Shown piece after piece: positions 3,862 through 55,800 of a DNA stretch of 64,000 nt. This DNA is from Anniella stebbinsi (lineage: Eukaryota; Chordata; Lepidosauria; Squamata; Anniellidae). The stretch covers positions 9,231,001 to 9,295,000 of the forward strand of contig JARDYH010000002.1 in NCBI GenBank assembly GCA_029215795.1, written 5' to 3'. The position numbers and the translations under genes were made by a program. The number at the start of each line of letters is the position of its first letter. Position 1 is the first letter of the stretch. Below the pieces are notes generated by a model. That model did no database searches and was not told the DNA's origin. It was given only the letters and a program-made list of their open reading frames with translations.

Positions 3862-4181
3862 TAGGGTGACCAGATTAAATCCAGGTCAGGGCTCATGTAA
3901 CTTTAACAGTTGTAGAGAAAAGGGAATTTCAGCCAGTGTCATTTGTATGCAATTACTTCCTGGTGAAATTCCCTCTTCATCACAACAGTTAAAGCTGCAG
4001 GGGCCCTGCCTTCTTTTGTATGTGGTCACTCTAGTATAGTGCCTGCACCTTTAATTGTTGTCATGAAGAGGGAATTTCACCAGGGACTAATTGCATACAA
4101 ATGACACTGGCTGAAATTCCCTTTTCTCTACAACTGTTAAAGTTACATGAGCCCTGACCTAGATTTTATCTGGTCACCCTA
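3862..4181. mobile_element. PalA copy 1 (hAT-type dimeric MITE)
   Basis: Starts TAGGGTGACC and ends GGTCACCCTA. It is flanked by an exact 8-bp duplication CCTTGTAT (3854-3861 and 4182-4189), the hAT signature. Two ~140-bp arms are inverted copies of each other (CTTTAACAGTTG...GAAATTCCCTCTTC); the spacer between them reads GGCCCTGCC...GTCACTCTAGTATAGTG. No coding capacity, so it must have been mobilised by a transposase from elsewhere. Confidence 0.93.
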
Positions 4182-4573: not shown

Positions 4574-5141
4574 GGCCTAATCTACACCAAGCAGGATATT
4601 GCATGTTGAAAGCTGTATGAAAGTGGTATATGAAAGGCAGAAGCCACACCAAGCAAGATATAACACTATGAAAACGGTATATGGTATGTGTCAATGGGTA
4701 GGCTGACCCTATGAAAAGGAGGACAGAGCTCATGTAACTTTAACAGTTGTAGAGAAAAAGGAATTTCAGCCAGTGTCATTTGTATGCAATTAGTTCCTGG
4801 TGAAATTCCCTCTTCATCACAACAGTTAAAGTTGCAGGCACTATACTAGAGTGACCATATACAAAAGAAGGCAGGGCCCCTGCAATTTTAACTGTTGTGA
4901 TGAAGAGGGAATTTCACCAGGAACTCATTGCCTACAAATGGCACTGGCTGAAATTCCCTTTTCTCTACAACTGTTAAAGTTACATGAGCCCTGTCCTCCT
5001 TTTCATATGGTCAGCCTATCAATGGGCCCCAACAGTTGCCAGTGCACTTCAATACTGCTATAAAGCAGTAGTATGGCTCCTGCCTCTTATATACCGCTTT
5101 CATGCCACTTTCATAGTGTGATATCCTGTTTGGTGTAGGCC
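4574..5141 (+). mobile_element. PalB copy 1, interrupted by PalA copy 2
   Basis: The left part (4574-4698) begins GGCCTAATCTACACCAAGC and carries repeated GGTATATG/GAAAGTGGTAT motifs; the right part (5019-5141) carries the complementary GCTTTCATGCC and ATATCCTGTTTGGTGTAG. The two parts join at the TCAATGGG duplication made by PalA copy 2, so the PalA insertion came later. The order of motifs equals PalB copy 2 at 19.39 kb read on the minus strand. The right end runs directly into PalC. Confidence 0.85.
4699..5018. mobile_element. PalA copy 2, inserted in PalB
   Basis: Starts TAGGCTGACC, ends GGTCAGCCTA, with an exact 8-bp duplication TCAATGGG at 4691-4698 and 5019-5026. The spacer reads CACTATACTAGAGTGACC...AAGGCAGGGCC, opposite to copy 1. 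The element splits PalB cleanly, which dates it after that insertion. Confidence 0.95.
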
Positions 5142-5719
5142 TCCATCACACCAGTGATTTCCTGCACTCCTGCCATGCCTGGTGTGTAGATATGCAGCAT
5201 AGCACTCCTGCTGACACCCCTCCTCTTCCCCAGCCTTTCCTGGAATGCTAAAGGTCTGGATTATTTTCCCTAAATGCATTAAATCTGCGGTAAGCCTCCA
5301 TGTAGTTTTAACGAAACTGGGGGCTTGAATGGATTGCATCAGGTCCTGGCAGGGAAAAGCCATCTCTCCCAGCAGTCAGCTCCAAGCCTCAATAGAAAAC
5401 CCAAACCTTGCATCCCTGGCTCAAAAGTCTTTTTTTAAAAATCATACAATGCCTGAATCTGTGCAGAGACAGGATTGTACTCCCTCGATGCCCCCAAAGA
5501 GTCAGACTAAAGGGGCAGTCTGGTTGATGTACTCATCTGCCAGAACCTGACTGGAGGGAAAATGAGAAGGGGAGGGGCAGAGTGGAGTGGAGTGTAACAG
5601 CAACAGAGTGAAAGAGCAGCTATTCAGGTGAAAGGGATCTTACACTTAACACGCGTTTGCCTCAGAGTTAAAAAAATGTGGAGGCAAACCAGGTGGGGGG
5701 AATAGGTGTGATGGAGGTC
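5141..5719 (+). mobile_element. PalC copy 1 (non-autonomous TIR element)
   Basis: Begins CCTCCATCACACCAG and ends GGTGTGATGGAGG, a short terminal inverted repeat. The interior matches copies at 44.5, 50.7 and 59.8 kb (for example GTCTGGATTATTTTCCCTAA, TGGATTGCATCAGGTCCTGG, and a GGAGTGGAGTG tract near 5580). No transposase frame. It abuts PalB copy 1; the same B-C junction recurs at 19.39 kb on the other strand. Confidence 0.85.
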
Positions 5720-14235: not shown

Positions 14236-14475
14236 GAGAGCCAGTGTGATGAAGTGGCTAGAGTGTTGGACTTGGAAGTTGAAAGATCCGGGTTCTCGTC
14301 CCCACTCAGCCATGGAAGCTCACTGGTTCACTTTTGGCCAGTCACAGGCTCTCAGCCCAACCTCCCCAACAGGGTTGTTGTTGTGAGGATAGACATGGAG
14401 AGGAGGAGGATTATATATGCCACCTTGAGTTCCTTGGAGGAAAAAAGGTGGGATAGAAATGCAATCAATCAATCA
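14236..14475 (+). repeat. tRNA-derived SINE, type 1 (squamate type)
   Basis: A-box-like GAAGTGGCTAGAGTGTTGG, B-box-like CCGGGTTCTCGTCCCC, a body with GCTCACTGGTTCACTTTTGG and GTTGTTGTGAGGATAGA, and a LINE-like 3' end GGGATAGAAATGCAATCAAT. This is the architecture of the SINEs widespread in lizards and snakes. Its 3' part belongs to the duplicated block that follows. Confidence 0.85.
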
Positions 14476-14961
14476 AGTATTGACATAGGTAAACTCTCTA
14501 TCTGGACACAGATAAACACAGCTGCCTGCATTTTTTGCCTCTCCTGGGGGCATAGCTATGCGGACTGTCAACTGTCCCCTATTGCATTGGGACCTGGCCT
14601 TGTTTTGTCCAGTTGGGCCAACCAGAGTGGTGCAACATTGTGGAGTCAGCTCTTCACACCACAACATGTTACATTGTCAAGTGCCATCAACACTGATGGC
14701 TAAAGGACGTTCCAAAGCGTGCAGAAGCTCCCCCAATATGGCCTTGCCTTTTGCATATTCTTCTTGGACCAGCTTTTGAAATGCACCTCACTGTTAGCTC
14801 ACTTGGCTTCTCGTCATTTTATGAATTGGCTAAATTTAGCATCACCCAGCGACCTTCAGCATGGATTCTTGTAAATGAGGCATCTACGGTTAACTCGGTT
14901 GATGAATTTAAAAACCTGACTGAACATTCAATGTTGCTTATGAAATAATCATGACTTGGCT
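14400..14961 (+). repeat. Local duplication X, copy 1
   Basis: About 560 bp, from the SINE 3' end (GAGGAGGAGGATTATATATG) to AATCATGACTTGGCT, that recurs in direct orientation at 16014-16573 with only scattered mismatches and one ~22-bp gap. The non-SINE part has no internal repeat and no recognisable product. A 73-codon open frame (14558-14779) is preserved in both copies, but so is everything else. Nucleotides around the unit are unrelated. Confidence 0.85.
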
Positions 14962-15899: not shown

Positions 15900-16078
15900 G
15901 AGTCATACTCTTGCTTCATCTAGTCCAATATTGTCAACACTAACTGACAATGTATCCCCAGTGTTTCAGGCAGGACTCTTTCCTGGAGATGCTGGAAATT
16001 GAACCTAGAACCTGAGGAGGAGGAGGATTATATATGCCACCTTGAGTATCTTGGAGGAAAAAAGGTGGGATATAAATG

Positions 16079-16109
<31 letters not shown>

Positions 16110-16597
16110 GTATTGACATAGGTAAACTCTCTATCTGGACACGGATAAACACAGCTGCCTGCATTTTTTGCCTCTCCTGGGGGCATAGCTATGCGGACTG
16201 TCAACTGCCCCCTATTGCATTGGGACCTGGCCTTGTTTTGTCCAGTTGGGCCAACCAGAGAGGTGCAACATTGTGGAATCAGCTCTTCACACCACAACAT
16301 GTTACATTGTCAAGTGCCATCAACACTGATGGCTAAAGGATGTTCCAAAGCGTGCAGAAGCTCCCCCAATATGGCCTTGCCTTTTGCATATTCCTCTTGG
16401 ACCAGCTTTTGAAATGCACCTGACTGTTAGCTCACTTGGCTTCTCGTCGTTTTATGAATGGGCTAAATTTAGCATCACCCAGCGACCTTCAGCATGGATT
16501 CTTGCAAATGAGGCATTTACGGTTAACTCGGTTGATGAATTTAAAAACCGAATGAAATAATCTTGACTTGGCTACCACTGAGCCACAGCCCCTCCAC
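15900..16597 (-). repeat. tRNA-derived SINE type 2, split by duplication X
   Basis: The SINE body 15900-16013 (TCATCTAGTCCAATATTGTC ... AATTGAACCTAGAACC) stops within the B-box region. The remaining head, TACCACTGAGCCACAGCCCC, resumes at 16574. About 25 bp of the tRNA-like head are missing and are replaced by 560 bp of duplicated sequence. Confidence 0.75.
16014..16573 (+). repeat. Local duplication X, copy 2
   Basis: Direct duplicate of 14400-14961. Differences seen by eye: a longer (CAAT)n run after the SINE end, single substitutions, and loss of about 22 bp (the stretch with CATTCAATGTTGC in copy 1). The left edge joins the SINE at GAACCT/GAGGAGG, the right edge at TTGGCT/ACCACTG. No terminal repeats, tail or target duplication frame it. 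Confidence 0.85.
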
Positions 16598-19312: not shown

Positions 19313-19389
19313 TTCAACAGTGAAGGACAACAGCTGCAAATCTACACACCAGGCATGGCGAGAGTGCAGTAAATCGCCGGTGTGATGGA
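19313..19389 (-). mobile_element. PalC end fragment joined to PalB copy 2
   Basis: On the minus strand it reads CCTCCATCACACC, GGCGATTTACTGCACTCTCG and CATGCCTGGTGTGTAGAT, the first 75 bp of PalC. It is fused to PalB exactly as at 5141. Confidence 0.8.
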
Positions 19390-19629
19390 GGCTTACACCA
19401 AGCAGGATATCACACTATGAAAGTGGTATGAAAGTGGTATATAAGAGGCAAGAGCCATACTACTGTTTTATAGCGGTATTGAAGTGCACTGACAACTGTT
19501 GGGGCCCATTGACACATACCATATACCACTTTCATACCACTATACCCTGCTTGGTGTGACTCCTGCCTTATATATACCGCTTTCATATCACTTTCATAGT
19601 GCAATATCCTGCTTGGTGTAGATGAGGCC
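19389..19629 (-). mobile_element. PalB copy 2 (full length, long form)
   Basis: Minus-strand start GGCCTCATCTACACCAAGC; the plus strand carries ACACCAAGCAGGATATCACA on the left and ATATCCTGCTTGGTGTAGAT on the right. About 240 bp with an internal third GCTTGGTGTGACTCCTGCC motif, as in copy 1. No coding capacity. Confidence 0.88.
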
Positions 19630-27729: not shown

Positions 27730-27833
27730 CAGGATCTACACTACTGCTTTATAATGGTATTGAAGTGCGCTGATAACTGTTTCCTTACTGTCATTTCTCT
27801 GCATTTCCTCATTCTTCCCGGAGGGACATAAAC
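27336..27833. other. Unassigned DNA, (TC)n and a PalB scrap
   Basis: (TC)n of about 19 units at 27690-27727, followed at 27728-27785 by GGCAGGATCTACACTACTGC and GGTATTGAAGTGCGCTGATA, part of a PalB interior. The rest is unique. Confidence 0.5.
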
Positions 27834-28016
27834 TAGGGTGACCAGATAAAATCTAGGTCAGGGCTCATGTAACTTTAACAGTTGTAGAGAAAAGGGAATT
27901 TCAGGCAGTGTCATTTGTATGCAATTAGTTCCTGGTGAAATTCCTTCTTCATCACCACAGTTAAAGTTGCAGGGGCCCTGCCTTCTTTTGTATATGGTCA
28001 CTCTAGTATAGTGTCT
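27834..28016. mobile_element. PalA copy 6, left half only
   Basis: TAGGGTGACCAGATAAAATC through arm and spacer to CACTCTAGTATAGTG, then abruptly stops at the junction to duplication Y (TCTGATTGGCC). Left flank ACATAAAC matches the right flank ACGTAAAC of the PalA end at 28725, so 27834 and 28725 are probably the two ends of a single original element. Confidence 0.85.
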
Positions 28017-28017
28017 G

Positions 28018-28406
28018 ATTGGCCGGGGGGGGGGGGGGGGGAGGCAAAGCACACTTTCTGGAGTCTCCGGAAAGTACGCAATTCCCCCGGCCTCACTAAC
28101 AGTGTGTCCAGGGGAATTGCGCACTTTCTGAAGGCCCCAGAAAGCATGCTTTGCCAAGGGCTCAGGAAGCTTGTAGCTGGGCCGTGAGAGCGGGGCTTGA
28201 CAAGCTCACAGGGTGGGACCCAACTGAGCCCTCCAAACTCTAGGTGTACAACAGTGCAGATAATAAATGGTTTCAAATCTAATGCGATACAATCAAAAAC
28301 TAATATCAAACCACCAGGACAAAAAGACAGCAAAGAAAAATTACAAAACAAGGCTGAAGGATTATACAATTATAATTATACAGTCTCCCTCATGATTACA
28401 TAGAGT
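28018..28406 (+). repeat. Local duplication Y, derived copy
   Basis: From CTGATTGGCC to about 28378, identical to 31268-31617 over some 325 bp apart from the length of one G-run (17 G or more here). It then continues after a deletion with CAGTCTCCCT, CATGATTACATAGAG. A 112-residue minus-strand open frame is identical in both copies only because the DNA is. The content resembles repeat H (TCTCCGGAAAGTACGCAATT) plus a possible L2 3' UTR in antisense. Confidence 0.9.
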
Positions 28407-28725
28407 TGGGTGACCAGATAAAATCCAGGCCAGGGCTCACGTAACTTTAACAGTTGTAGAGAAAAGGGAATTTCAGCCAGTGTCATTTGTATGCAATTAG
28501 TTACTGGTGAAATTCCCTCTTCATCACAACAGTTAAAGGTGCAGGCACTATACTAGAGTGACCATATACAAAAGAAGGCAGGGCCCCTGCAACTTTAACT
28601 GTTGTGATGAAGAGGGGATTTCACCAGGAACTAATTGCATACAAATGACACTGGCTGAAATTCCTTTTTCTCTACAATTGTTAAAGTTACATGAGCCCTG
28701 ACCTGGATTTTATCTGGTCAGCCTA
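28407..28725. mobile_element. PalA copy 7
   Basis: Left end TGGGTGACCAGATAAAATCC, right end CTGGTCAGCCTA. It shares the rare variant GGGCTCACGTAAC with copy 10 at 31.7 kb. No own target duplication: its left flank ACATAGAG is instead the right flank of copy 10. The spacer is in the opposite orientation to copy 10. Confidence 0.9.
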
Positions 28726-29125
28726 CGTAAACAAAGACCACAAGGCCCATTCAGAGGCTGTTTTTATGGCACGGCTTTTCCTGCAAACTGCAGGAGACTG
28801 CGGCACATTCTGGGTTTTTTTTTTGTTTTTTTTAAAGTCGGATTAAAAGGGGTCTGTTTTGCTAAGGGAAAAGTGAGTGGAAGGCGTGGGGGGGTATGAC
28901 AGCATCTAAAAAACGCGCGCACATCCATAAGGAGGCAGCAGCGAGCGTGTGATAAGACATTCGTCTGACAAACCTCAAATTCCATATGCCGTTTTCAAAC
29001 TGCTTTCAAAGTGTTATATCCTGCTTGCTGTAGATCTGCCCCCCTCTCTCTCTGTCACACACATACACACACACAGAGAGACATGTGTGCACAAAGAAAA
29101 CAGCAGGTACGGGGAGGGAGAGTTA
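28726..29125. other. Unassigned DNA with a PalB end
   Basis: 28985-29033 (CAAACTGCTTTCAAAGTG, TATATCCTGCTTGCTGTAGA) is a right-end PalB fragment. (CA)n/(GA)n pieces lie at 29057-29085. Otherwise unassigned. Confidence 0.5.
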
Positions 29126-29251
29126 GGCTCTTTCTACACCATCGGGGTGTAGAAGGAGGGAGGGTGATCCCAGAAGTACCTAATACACACCTTCGGCGCA
29201 CAGGGAGCAGCCGGGGCCATCCCAGGCAAACAGCCTGGTGTGGAAAGGGCC
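29126..29251. mobile_element. PalN copy 2 (short form)
   Basis: TIRs GGCTCTTTCTACACC and GGTGTGGAAAGGGCC; about 125 bp, an internally deleted relative of 19651-20136. Confidence 0.7.
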
Positions 29252-29479
29252 AGTTTAAGGAACAGCATGAAAGAAAGGGTTAACATCCTCCCCCCACCAA
29301 GTGCACTGCCCCCAAAACAATCTCCCCTTGCCCCATGGCTGTTTTTAACTTTCACTTCAAATAATTCAGGGGGTGTAATCATATATCTTCCACCATTTCA
29401 TCTAGTTGGTCCCCCCCCAAAGGTTTGGTATTATTCATGCGAAGTAGCTTGACATTTCGTTCTAAAGATTGTCCCCGCT
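29252..29479. other. Unassigned DNA
   Basis: No feature recognised. Confidence 0.4.
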
Positions 29480-29790
29480 CCACCACACAAAAGTGTATGT
29501 AGATTTGTCGGGGGGGGGGGGGTTGTCAATTGGCATGCTGAAAATAATTAGAAACATTCCCTGATTTCCAAATTGCATCCCAATTTTAATGGATGGTCTT
29601 GACTTCTGTCTAATTGCCTTTTTATTCTTCACTTTGTTCCCTTTGTGAGACTTTTTGGAGCTCATATACATATCGGAAGAGTAAGGTATCAATTAAATGC
29701 CTCCTTGATGGTAATCTCAGCTGGCACAAGACTACTAATGGCCACATCATCCCCACTTAGCCAAGCAGTGGCAAGTCCCAGGGATAGCGC
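29480..29790. promoter_or_regulatory. Candidate conserved noncoding element
   Basis: After a G-run (29510-29522): GTCAATTGGCATGC, GAAAATAATTAGAAAC, CCAATTTTAATGGATGG, GTCTAATTGCC, ATCAATTAAATGCC and ACTACTAATGGCCAC. Dense ATTA cores in unique DNA suggest an enhancer; not aligned. Confidence 0.35.
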
Positions 29791-29945
29791 TATCCAGATT
29801 TGGTTTTCTTTAGGTGAGAAAGCACTGGAGGCAGGGGGGCATTAATGGAGGCAAACGGTGCAAACTCCTATGAAGCAACAGATCCCTGACCCCACATCAG
29901 ATTTCCAGAGAGTCCTAATTTGGACACTAAAGTCCATCACTTTAA

Positions 29946-30264
29946 TAGGGTGACCAGTTAACTCCAGGTCAGGGCTCATATAACTTTAACAGTTGTAGAG
30001 GAAAGGGAATTTCAGCCAGTGTCATTTGTATGCAATTAGTTCCTGGTGAAATTCCCTCTTCATCACCACAGTTTAAGTTGCAGGGTCCCTGCCTTCTTTT
30101 GTATATGGTCACTCTAGTATAGTGCCTGCAACTTTAACTGTTATGATGAAGAGGGAATTTCACCAGGAACTAATTGCATATAAATGACACTGGCTGAAAT
30201 TCCCTTTTCTCTACAACTGTTACAGTTACAGGAGCCCTGACCTGGATTTTATCTGGTCAGCCTA
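29946..30264. mobile_element. PalA copy 8
   Basis: TAGGGTGACCAGTTAACTCC to CTGGTCAGCCTA. Flanks CACTTTAA and (A)ACTTTAAG make an 8-bp duplication with one mismatch or one-base offset. Spacer orientation as in copy 1. Confidence 0.92.
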
Positions 30265-30392
30265 ACTTTAAGCCAACACCTACTCATGACTCCATGTATT
30301 TCGAAATGCCCTTAGGCACACACACAAACGCACACACATTTACAACCTCCCCTCAGCTGGGGTTTGGTTGTCACCTTCCCAGCACTCTAATT

Positions 30393-30712
30393 TAGGGTGA
30401 CCATATGAAAGGGAGGGCAGGGCTCCTGTGTCTTTAACAATAGCATAGAAAAGGGAATTTCAGCAGGTGTCATTTGTAGGCATGCAGCACCTGGTGAAAT
30501 TCCCTCTTCGTCACAACCGTTATAGGTGCAGGAGCTATACTAGAGTGAGAGATACTAAAGAGGGCAGGGCTCCTGCAGCTTGAACTGTTGTGATGAAGAG
30601 GGAATTTCACCAGGTGCTGCATTCATACAAATGACCCCTGCTGAAATTCCGTTTGCTACACAACTGTTTATAGATACAGGAGGTCTGCCCTCCTTTCCAT
30701 ATGGTCACTCTA
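30393..30712. mobile_element. PalA copy 9 (older subfamily)
   Basis: TAGGGTGACCATATGAAAGG to ATATGGTCACTCTA. CTCCTGTGTCTTTAAC and GCAGCTTGAAC arms place it with copies 3, 4 and 12. No target duplication remains. Confidence 0.9.
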
Positions 30713-31267
30713 TGTTGGTAATGTTGAGGATGGAAGCAAAGGGCCAAACGCTGCAAGTGTTTGTGTTAGCTCTTGGTGCAATAGTAATCCCAGAAGCAGA
30801 AGGAATACTCCAATATATATACAGCACAACGGTTTTCCATCAGATATGTACACAGTCCTTTACACAATACTCCTCACGTCCAAATACGTCTAGTCCGACC
30901 TCCACTCTCCAACCAAGCCATACAAATAAGACTTACTTTATGTTTCTCATATCATCTCATCCCTGCTTAATCTATCTTATCTGTGCTGGTACTTAGCAAT
31001 AATTAGGCTGACCTTTCCAGTACTGTACATACTCCCTCAACCATCATTGCTTGCAGCTGGCTGTGTCCTTCAGACTCTATCAAAATTTTCCTCCAATCCA
31101 CTTGGTCTCTGGAATTTTCCCCCAACAGGTAACCCTTTCCAACAACCAGGGAGACCTGCATCTAATTCCTAACCCAGAGGCAGGCAACCTGTGGCCCTTG
31201 TGACCTTATCCCACAGGAGTATTTTCTCCCTTCTCTGTAATGGTGGCCTTGCATTACGAGGGCATTT
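30713..31267. other. Unassigned DNA
   Basis: No repeat recognised. The part 30713-31000 is unique with several CpGs (CTCACGTCC, ATACGTCTAGTCCGACC). Confidence 0.4.
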
Positions 31268-31731
31268 AAGACCCTGATTGGCCGGGGGGGAGGCAAAGCA
31301 CACTTTCTGGAGTCTCCGGAAAGTACGCAATTCCCCCGGCCTCACTAACAGTGTGTCCAGGGGAATTGCGCACTTTCTGAAGGCCCCAGAAAGCATGCTT
31401 TGCCAAGGGCTCAGGAAGCTTGTAGCTGGGCCGTGAGAGCGGGGCTTGACAAGCTCACAGGGTGGGACCCAACTGAGCCCTCCAAACTCTAGGTGTACAA
31501 CAGTGCAGATAATAAATGGTTTCAAATCTAATGCGATACAATCAAAAACTAATATCAAACCACCAGGACAAAAAGACAGCAAAGAAAAATTACAAAACAA
31601 GGCTGAAGGATTATACAAATAAAAATGCCTGGGTCAAAAGGTACATCATAACCCAGCTCCAAATGAATTGTGAAGCAGTTGTCAGGATGGTTTTATCAGG
31701 CCAGAGCACCACTACTAGAAACAGTCTCCCT
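31268..31731 (+). repeat. Local duplication Y, probable source copy
   Basis: CTGATTGGCC to GGATTATACAA is the same as 28018-28378; here the sequence goes on with AATAAAAATGCCTGGGTC and continues to CAGTCTCCCT, a 110-bp stretch missing from the other copy. The extra part reads like an antisense L2 3' region (AATGCCTGGGTC, ATCAGGCCAGAGCACC). Being the longer, and having the PalA target duplication on its right side, it is likely the older copy. Confidence 0.85.
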
Positions 31732-32032
31732 CCAGGTCAGGGCTCACGTAACTTTAACAGTTGTAGAGAAAAGGGAATTTCAGCCAGAGTCATTTGTATG
31801 CGATTAGTTCCTGGTGAAATTCCCTCTTCATCACAACAGTTAAAGTTGCAGGGGCCCTGCCTTCTTTTGTATATGGTCACTCTAGTATAGTGCCTGCAAC
31901 TTTAACTGTTGTGATGAAGAGGGAATTTCACCAGGAACTAATTGCATACAAATAACACTGGCTGAAATCCCCTTTTCTCTACAATTGTTAAAGTTACGTG
32001 AGCCCTGACCTGGATTTTATCTGGTCACCCTA
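31732..32032. mobile_element. PalA copy 10, left end lost
   Basis: Begins at CCAGGTCAGGGCTCACG (the first ~18 bp and the left target duplication are deleted) and ends CTGGTCACCCTA. Right flank ACATAGAG (32033-32040). The lost left duplication is preserved in the duplicate at 28.4 kb. Confidence 0.9.
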
Positions 32033-32040
32033 ACATAGAG

Positions 32041-38377: not shown

Positions 38378-38690
38378 TAGGGTGGTCCTATGGAAAGGAG
38401 GACAGGGCTCCTGTATCTTTAACAGTTGTGGTGAAGAGGGAATTCAGCAGGTGTCATTTGTATGCATGCAGCACCTGGTGAAATTCCCTCTTCATCACAA
38501 CAATTTAAGCTGCAGGGGCTATACTAGAGTACCCAGATACAGAAGAGGGCAGGGCTCCTGCAGCTTTAACTGTTGTGATGAAGATGGAATTTCACCAGGT
38601 GCTGTGTGCATACAAATGACATCTGCTGAAATTCCCTCTGCTATACAACTAAAAGATACAGGAGCCCTGTCCTCCTGTCCACATGGTCAC
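38378..38690. mobile_element. PalA copy 12 (older subfamily)
   Basis: TAGGGTGGTCCTATGGAAAG to CACATGGTCAC, last bases replaced by the next copy. CTCCTGTATC subfamily with a shortened right arm (ACAACTAAAAGATACAGG). Confidence 0.88.
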
Positions 38691-39010
38691 TAGGGTGACC
38701 AGATAAAATCCAGGTCAGGGCTCATGTAACTTTAACAGTTGTAGAGAAAAGGGAATTTCAGCCAGTGTCATTTGTATGCAATTAGTTCCTGGTGAAATCC
38801 CCTCTTCATCACAACGGCTAAAGGTGCATGCACTATACTCGAGTGACCATATACAAAAGAAGGCAGGGCCCCTGCAACTTTAACAGTTGTGATGAAGAGG
38901 GGATTTAATCAGGAACTAATTGCCTACAAATGACACTGGCTGAAATTCCCTTTTCTCTACAACTGTTAAAGTTACATGAGCCCTGACCTGGATTTTATCT
39001 GGTCAGCCTA
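38691..39010. mobile_element. PalA copy 13, abutting copy 12
   Basis: TAGGGTGACCAGATAAAATC to CTGGTCAGCCTA, CTCATGTAAC subfamily. It begins exactly where copy 12 loses its end and lacks a target duplication, as if two PalA elements had been joined through their termini. Spacer CACTATACTCGAGTGACC. Confidence 0.9.
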
Positions 39011-39459: not shown

Positions 39460-40050
39460 TCATAGAATCATAGAATGGTAGAGTTGGAAGGGGCCTCTAA
39501 GGCCATTGAGTCCAAACCCCTGCTCAATGCAGGAATCCACATTAAAGCATACCTGACAGACAGCTGAATGCCTCCAGTGTCGGAGAGCTTGGTCATTGGT
39601 CCCATTGTCATACTGCTCTAACAGTCAGGAAGTTTTTCCTGATGTCCAGCCGGAATCTGGCTTCCTGTAACTTGAGCCCATTATTCCGCGTCCTGCATTC
39701 TGGGTTGATCGAGAAGAGATCCTGGCCCTCCTCCGTGTGACAACCTTTCAAGTATTTGAAGAGTGCTAACATGTCTCCCCTCAGTCTTCTCTTCCCCAGG
39801 CTATACATGCCCAGTTCTTTCAGTCTTTCCTCATAGGGCTTTGTTTCCAGACCCAGCCCTGATCATCCTTTTTGCCCTCCTCTGAACCCCCTCCAGCTTG
39901 TCTGCATCCTTCTTGGTGACCAGAAATGGACACAATACCCAAGATGAGGCCTAACCAGTGCTGAATAGAGGGGAAGCAGTACCTCGCATGATTTGGAAGC
40001 TATATTTCTATTCATGCAGCACAATGGAGTGTATTGGGCTTGTAATATGA
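39460..40050 (-). pseudogene. CR1 LINE 3' end, dead
   Basis: The plus strand starts with the tail complement ATAGAATCATAGAATGGTAG, AGAGTTGGAAGGGGCCTCTA. The minus-strand frame 39608-39808 reads [57 protein letters not shown]. It goes on to VQRGQKG-like and [12 protein letters not shown] codons up to 40050. About 590 bp. Confidence 0.93.
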
Positions 40051-46726: not shown

Positions 46727-47117
46727 GATAATAGAATCAAAGAATAGTAGAGTTGGAAGGGGCCTAAAAGGCCATCAAGTCCAACCCCCTGCTCAATGCA
46801 GGAATCCACTTTAAAGCATCCCTGACAGATGGTTGTCCAGCTGCCTCTTGAATGCCTCTAATGTGGGAGAGCCTACTAGCTCCCTAGGTCTTTGGTTCCA
46901 TTGTCATACTGCTCTAACAGTCAGGAAGTTTTTCCTGATGTCCAGCCGAAATCTGGCTGCCGGTAACTTGAGCCCGTTATTCCGTGTACTGCACTCTGGA
47001 ATGACCAAGAAGAGATCTTGGCGTGAGAACCTTCCAAGTATTTGAAGAGTGCCATCATGTCTCCCCTCAATCTTCTCCAGGCTAAACATGCCCAGTTCTT
47101 TCAGTCTCTCCTCATGA
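46727..47117 (-). pseudogene. CR1 LINE 3' end, dead
   Basis: The plus strand begins AATAGAATCAAAGAATAGTA, AGAGTTGGAAGGGGCCTAAA. The minus frame gives [30 protein letters not shown] near 46904-46985. About 390 bp, 5'-truncated. Confidence 0.92.
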
Positions 47118-52769: not shown

Positions 52770-52919
52770 TTGTGGGCTCCCCCACATTAGAGGCATTCAA
52801 GAGGCAGTTGGACAACCATCTGTCAGGGATGCTTTAAGGTGGATTCCTGCATTGAGCAGGGGGTTGGACTCGATGGCCTTATAGGCCCCTTCCAACTCTA
52901 CCACTCTATGATTCTATGA
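52770..52919 (+). repeat. CR1 3' terminus
   Basis: GAGGCATTCAAGAGGCAGTT, GGATTCCTGCATTGAGCAGG, GGTTGGACTCGATGGCCTTA, CCACTCTATGATTCTATG. Same end as inside PalA copy 4. Confidence 0.92.
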
Positions 52920-55480: not shown

Positions 55481-55800
55481 TAGGCTGACCAGATAAAATC
55501 CAGGTCAGGGCTCATGTAACTTTAACAGTTGTAGAGAAAAGGGAATTTCAGCCAGTGTCATTTGTATGCAATTAGTTCCTGGTGATATTGCCTCTTCATC
55601 ACAACAGTTAAAGGTGCAGGCACTATACTAGAGTGACCATATACAAAAGAAGGCAGGGCCCCTGCAACTTTAACTGTTGTGATGAAGAGGGAATTTGACC
55701 AGGAACTAATTGCATACAAATGACACTGGCTGAAATTCCCTTTTCTCTACAACTGTTAAAGTTACATGAGCCTTGACCTGGATTTTATCTGGTCACCCTA
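55481..55800. mobile_element. PalA copy 15
   Basis: TAGGCTGACCAGATAAAATC to CTGGTCACCCTA. Flanks TTTGAATG and TTCTAATG match at six of eight bases. The two ends carry different end variants (GGCTGACC, GGTCACCC). Spacer CACTATACTAGAGTGACC. Confidence 0.93.

Follow-up and report, generated by a model that had tools for sequence, protein, structure and literature searches.

A neighbouring DNA block copied into a palindromic repeat of Anniella stebbinsi, with features of vertebrate repair-mediated duplication

The 64,000-nucleotide window analysed here (positions 9,231,001 to 9,295,000 of contig JARDYH010000002.1, Anniella stebbinsi assembly GCA_029215795.1; G000:C2:9231001-9295000 in our searches) contains two almost identical copies of a block made up of parts of two older repeats. 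The blocks start at 28015 and 31274, that is 3.26 kb apart on the same chromosome. The first lies within copy 6 of PalA, a palindromic repeat family, and is followed by PalA copy 7; the second is followed by PalA copy 10 (Table 1). All evidence comes from one assembly and from sequence alone. The genome searches covered 1.89 Gb in 91 contigs, and repeat counts given below are lower bounds since at most 40 candidates were scored per search.

PalA is a palindrome of 320 bp, in which arms of 137 bp pair at 136 positions around a spacer of 46 bp (consensus of eight copies in the window). The consensus runs from TAGGGTGACC to GGTCACCCTA and has terminal inverted repeats, and the copy at 3862 folds into one long hairpin (-148.9 kcal/mol, z -30.6). 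An exact 8-bp target-site duplication was found for 41 of 75 PalA copies examined genome-wide (5/20, 17/29 and 19/26 in three samples); the window copies at 3862, 4699 and 34961 also carry one. Because 8-bp target-site duplications are combined with terminal inverted repeats, PalA fits a hAT-type miniature inverted-repeat transposable element (MITE). A literature search retrieved no paper that combines palindromic hAT MITE transposable elements with lizard. The window holds 15 PalA-like copies in 64 kb (3862-55800), which fall into at least two kinds according to their ends, CAGATAAAATC and CATATGAAAAG. PalA also occurs head to tail at 38378-39010, and at two loci elsewhere (L073 and the second L020 copy, 2374-2702) a PalA tip, GTCAGCCT, forms the 8-bp target-site duplication; PalA may insert into PalA tips.

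The two blocks share an identical core of 328 bp (28042-28369 and 31291-31618), which runs from AGGCAAAG to AAGGATTATACAA in both copies. A run of G residues precedes it, 17 in the 28-kb copy versus 7 in the 31-kb copy, and the 10 bp upstream of this run, CTGATTGGCC, are likewise common to both. BLAST aligned the pair over 341 bp at 99.4% identity (E 5e-175), and none of 338 sites carries a substitution. In the genome search, these two were the only near-identical copies among the best 40 of 722 candidates. The remaining matches of that set reach 73-92% identity over short parts of the block, nearly all within query bases 1-160, with two extending to 204 and 219. An earlier note on this DNA had described two copies about 3.2 kb apart that differ only in the G-run, and this description holds; the coordinates it gave, 28018-28378 and 31268-31617, designate the same blocks, although the limits had to be revised to 28015-28369 and 31274-31618. 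Since G-runs are difficult to sequence, an assembly artefact might come to mind. However, the copies differ in their flanks and in their G-runs and the junctions are biologically sensible, and we consider an artefact very improbable.

The block is composed of pieces from two old repeats dispersed in the genome, and their other copies bear on the direction of copying. For the left repeat, all ten distinct loci that were compared align leftward of the 31274 breakpoint, six of them with a clear match to CCTTGCATTACGAGGGCATTTAAGACC, while L007 and L009 are ragged; these ten correspond to 12 fetched loci (two were fetched twice) from several dozen listed, and some were picked for early-starting or long matches. 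The right repeat carries on across 31618 in all six aligned loci much like the source does, typically with GATTATACAAATTAAAATGCCTGGGT, and eight of ten matches outside the window span this breakpoint. Thus, the 31-kb copy is whole at both ends, whereas the 28-kb copy is truncated at both repeat breakpoints. Other genomic copies of both repeats cross the breakpoints of 31274-31618, at which the 28-kb block is severed; the comparison thus supports 31274-31618 as the source and the 28-kb block as derived, in line with the direction given in the earlier note. The opposite polarity, with the source at 28 kb, was ruled out, as both old repeats continue only through the 31-kb breakpoints. The same breakpoints speak against the view of the block as a mobile element that had jumped into PalA copy 6. 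The block does hold pieces of dispersed repeats, but both of its ends fall within old repeats that carry on in the source, neither a target-site duplication nor a poly-A stretch is seen at the block, and it brought along flank and target-site copy from PalA copy 10. Mobile insertion was rejected on the grounds of the breakpoints within the two old repeats, and its probability appears very low.

The derived block interrupts a recognisable transposable element. PalA copy 6 is whole up to the end of its spacer and breaks off at 28013, where the PalA family proceeds with CCTGCA; the junction coincides with the edge between spacer and right arm. On its right side copy 6 merges into copy 7, which masks the extent of any deletion in copy 6. 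At the left junction, the derived copy has TAGTGTCTG at 28009-28017, against TAGTGCCTG in the intact PalA at 3862 and GACCCTGATT in the source. At the breakpoint the source has CCTGATT and the derived copy TCTGATT. By this comparison, the left join is a microhomology of 4 bp with one C-to-T change or one of 3 bp with one added base, as also described in the earlier note, which had a shared motif of 3-4 bases. Random joins would share at least four bases with a probability of 1.6% and at least three bases with a probability of 5.1%.

The right side is more complex. In the derived copy, the block is followed by TTATAATTAT, ACAGTCTCCCTC, ATGATTACATAGAG and PalA copy 7, while in the source it is followed by 102-103 other bases, ACAGTCTCCCTC and PalA copy 10, which is devoid of its first ~20 bp. 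Judged against the derived copy, the loss at the tip of copy 10 amounts to ~34 bp, and the left target-site copy is gone too. As ACATAGAG lies to the left of copy 7 and also flanks copy 10 on the right as its target-site copy, the derived copy looks like it has kept the left flank that copy 10 had originally; the source would since have lost this flank in the ~34-bp deletion. On its other side, copy 7 is followed by ACGTAAAC, which resembles ACATAAAC, the left target-site copy of copy 6. Because of these matches (8/8 for ACATAGAG, 7/8 for ACGTAAAC), copy 7 is bounded by the flank of copy 10 on the left and probably by that of copy 6 on the right, in agreement with the earlier note; in our reading its left end would be copy-10-like and its right end that of copy 6. 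The TTATAATTAT filler repeats the neighbouring ATTATACA and may represent a templated insertion of the polymerase-theta kind. Plant studies of filler DNA at transposon-linked breaks reportedly describe the same kind of capture. The claims of the earlier note that the derived copy enters PalA copy 7 on the right, that the outer flanks resemble one original 8-bp duplication and that the left flank of copy 7 is the target duplication of copy 10 agree with the PalA homology and the two flank matches. The shared ACAGTCTCCCTC, the source-only stretch of 102-103 bp with its TTATAATTAT counterpart, the loss of the copy 10 tip and the inverted spacer of copy 7 are additional features. The two copies, their polarity, the sequences of both junctions and the shared flanks are shown by the sequence comparisons.

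Table 1. Features of the derived and source regions (positions in the window).
Feature	Position	Strand	Basis
ACATAAAC, left target-site copy of PalA copy 6	27826..27833	+	7/8 match to 28725-28732
Left arm and spacer of PalA copy 6, which has no right arm beyond	27834..28013	+	Comparison with family consensus
Left junction TCTG; CCTG in both PalA and source	28014..28017	+	Sequence comparison
Derived copy of source block: run of 17 G followed by the identical 328-bp core	28015..28369	+	Sequence comparison, BLAST, genome search
TTATAATTAT, filler replacing 102-103 bp of source	28370..28379	+	Looks templated from adjacent ATTATACA (inferred)
ACAGTCTCCCTC, continuation of source right flank	28380..28391	+	Identical to 31721-31732
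ACATAGAG, equal to right target-site copy of PalA copy 10	28398..28405	+	8/8 match to 32033-32040
PalA copy 7, whole; spacer inverted relative to copies 6 and 10	28406..28724	+	PalA comparisons
ACGTAAAC, probable right target-site copy of PalA copy 6	28725..28732	+	7/8 match to ACATAAAC; overlaps the final A of the element
Source block with portions of two old repeats	31274..31618	+	Genome search, alignment of repeat loci
Stretch present only in the source; at its start an old repeat carries on without a break	31619..31720	+	6/6 aligned loci cross the breakpoint
ACAGTCTCCCTC in source	31721..31732	+	Sequence comparison
PalA copy 10, first ~20 bp missing	31733..32032	+	Comparison with consensus and derived copy
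ACATAGAG, right target-site copy of PalA copy 10	32033..32040	+	Sequence comparison

We consider it likely that, at its core, the event was a copying of the repair type, with the 31-kb block as source and PalA copy 6 as recipient. This confidence covers the core event only: the alternatives of template switching and of a tandem PalA recipient, which are weighed below, are variants of it, so that their likelihoods overlap with it. Our best reading of the sequence is a break repair of the synthesis-dependent strand annealing (SDSA) type, which would have been primed by PalA on one side and joined by microhomology on the other. The following scenario, with its break, pathway and strand order, is inferred. 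A double-strand break would occur at the inner hairpin end of PalA copy 6, i.e. at the edge of spacer and right arm, and the right-hand break end, a PalA arm, would pair with PalA copy 10 about 3.7 kb away. Extension would then run leftward out of copy 10, first across its tip and its target-site copy ACATAGAG, then across ACAGTCTCCCTC and the block as far as 31274, where the new strand would be released and joined to the left break end at CCTG, SDSA being finished by microhomology joining. The 102-103 bp would have been skipped during copying or lost afterwards, leaving the short filler. Unequal crossing-over between PalA copies was rejected, because the stretches between the blocks are not duplicated within the window.

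Replication-based mechanisms of the fork stalling and template switching (FoSTeS) or microhomology-mediated break-induced replication (MMBIR) type also involve microhomology and template skips. The present event resembles them in both respects, and microhomology, skipped stretch and filler would suit serial switching. Being replication-based, they differ from a two-ended break repair, yet the two are not separable by sequence here, and homology on one side together with proximity suits SDSA equally well; we regard template switching as a possible but less probable course. Replication template switch and repair synthesis after a break would yield the same sequence outcome, and the repair reading matches a process described in vertebrates (PMC2671141).

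The simplest version of the scenario, one recent event between copies 6 and 10, has to accommodate an unequal divergence. Between PalA copies 7 and 10 there are 12 differences in 300 sites (4%), whereas the adjoining blocks differ at 0 of 338 (Fisher p 0.0001). A count of uncommon variants points the same way: copies 7 and 10 carry eight private changes in no more than 264 arm sites, versus 0/338 in the block (p 0.0013); the private changes are nine if arm-35 of the right arms is included, and copy 10 lacks some 20 of the 264 sites. A single simple recent event between copies 6 and 10 is not supported, because copies 7 and 10 have diverged and the spacer is inverted while the block is unchanged. 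The proposal of the earlier note, a template switch or gene conversion between PalA copies, thus stands with respect to direction, left microhomology, right PalA homology and the copy 10 flank carried along, but not in the form of one simple recent event. As copies 7 and 10 are unlike and the blocks identical, either a second step or a tandem PalA recipient must be added.

We lean towards a second step, in which the duplication would be about as old as the divergence between copies 7 and 10. Copy 7 would have had its spacer flipped once, and the blocks would later have been made identical by gene conversion that stopped at the heterologies on either side. Two other histories of these copies were rejected. 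A recent overwriting of copy 7 or copy 10 by another PalA would require a near-identical donor, and none was found among the matches listed, either for copy 7 (best other 97%, best 40 of 2674) or for copy 10 (best other 98%, best 40 of 1942). A fold-back of the left arm of copy 6 as the origin of copy 7 was likewise set aside, since the uncommon variants of copy 6 are absent from copy 7.

In favour of the older duplication, copies 7 and 10 share two uncommon variants, arm-35 C (left) and arm-48 A (right), and they are one of only two pairs among 528 that share two such variants. Several observations weigh against an older duplication followed by conversion. The copies behind the 528 pairs were chosen mostly because they resemble the copy at 55481, and such a choice depresses the variant frequencies. 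In a wider PalA sample, C at column 35 occurred in 9 of 99 copies and G at column 286 in 24 of 93, with both in five fetched copies besides copy 10; this sample is enriched for relatives of copies 7 and 10, and three places were fetched twice. Because other PalA copies carry it too, arm-35 C is a weak marker of descent and may be a retained CpG. In addition, the inverted spacer of copy 7 needs an additional step. A spacer flip would need exchange from arm to arm, for which a general excess within PalA copies is lacking: two shared variants were seen versus 1.4 expected (a value reached in 2070 of 5000 shuffles), in a count that left out copy 6 and every variant with a frequency of at least 10%, arm-35 C included. 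Variant frequencies throughout come from samples selected by similarity to one or other window copy. The variants common to copies 7 and 10 were accordingly given up as strong proof of descent in view of the wider sample, and arm-to-arm conversion as a general habit of PalA was dismissed for want of an excess among the retained variants.

The other solution is a single recent event in a recipient that already had PalA copies 6 and 7 as neighbours. Here, the right break end, in the left tip of copy 7, would have paired with the now lost tip of copy 10, and only the outermost bases and the flank would have been copied, the body of copy 7 being native. This accounts for the lack of substitutions in the block, for the ordinary divergence of copy 7 and for its independent spacer orientation, and tandem PalA do exist: the window copies at 38378 and 38691 abut, and in 2 of 26 copies (L073, L020x) a PalA tip is the target site. 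However, it requires ACGTAAAC past copy 7 to be the target-site copy of copy 6 after a further collapse, demands the 34-bp loss from copy 10 within the same short time and leaves the two variants shared by copies 7 and 10 to chance. We find this course rather unlikely and would moderately favour the older duplication with subsequent conversion.

A separate observation concerns the arm-35 position. CACG is present there in both arms (columns 35 and 286) in a set of PalA copies comprising L097, L099, L101, L103, L109 and copy 10, which may be a subfamily or reflect a retained CpG.

Repair-mediated duplications (RDs) were described by Pace, Sen, Batzer and Feschotte (2009, PLoS Genet, PMC2671141). 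More than 1,000 probable RDs were reported in human, detected as interruptions of transposable elements, and further ones were counted in chicken (6) and zebrafish (80). The donor lies within 5 kb for 824 of 1,136 human duplicons. The proximal class reaches 619 bp, with microhomologies of 2-9 nt, fillers of 1-68 nt and no poly-A in 39 proximal cases examined, and RDs were attributed to SDSA. The present event agrees with this process in all four features tested (PMC2671141): the donor is located within 5 kb of the acceptor (3.26 kb) on the same chromosome; the acceptor is an interrupted transposable element, PalA copy 6; the insert (28015-28405, ~390 bp up to copy 7, or longer if part of copy 7 was copied) falls within 50-619 bp; and the breakpoints show the CCTG microhomology and the TTATAATTAT filler but no poly-A. 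It differs in that one end was apparently primed by homology between members of the same palindromic family, and because of this PalA priming a foreign flank and target-site copy came along. It also differs in that the block is more alike than the adjoining PalA copies; the terms 'gene conversion' and 'palindrom' do not occur in the main text of PMC2671141. Most likely, judging from the sequence, we are dealing with a further case of RD, a known vertebrate process, rather than with a new kind of system. The case is well preserved, as donor, acceptor, polarity, microhomology end and homology end are all legible from one genome. It is instructive for its PalA-primed right end and its unequal divergence, and MITE target-site copies can serve as tracers of a repair tract.

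A more far-reaching idea, which we put forward as a long shot, is that palindromic MITEs at high density could work as paired sites of breakage and as primers. Breaks at hairpin tips would be repaired from a neighbouring copy, thereby capturing flanks and inverting spacers, and repeated conversion would keep the block identical. If true, MITE clusters would be a standing engine of small neighbour duplications. If palindromic MITEs were recurrent acceptors genome-wide, hairpin-forming transposons would be tied to the duplication of neighbouring DNA, for which a single case is insufficient. Four of 20 PalA copies with a match that stops short of the right end were read onward (L093-L096), and none is a clear neighbour duplication. 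Beyond the break, one continues into a tandem satellite, two have no remainder of the arm within 1.9 kb (one of them ending at a TTA run), and one, L096 (G000:C4:81748470-81750400), is interrupted. In L096, ~358 bp (319-676) are inserted in the PalA right arm, whose remainder (columns 278-320) follows; no second copy of this insert lies within the 1.9 kb read.

An Rfam scan of the window at gathering scores returned nothing, and the window contains 47 open frames of 110 to 209 amino acids. It also harbours further duplicated pairs. Another proximal direct duplication involves 14400-14924 and 16017-16556 (~541 bp, 94% identity, 1.6 kb apart). An inverted pair of 180 bp (92%) is located at 5019-5198 and 19333-19512, one copy starting directly after the PalA at 4699-5018. 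Other short inverted pairs (94%) lie at 46731-46876, 52772-52919 and 39460-39560.

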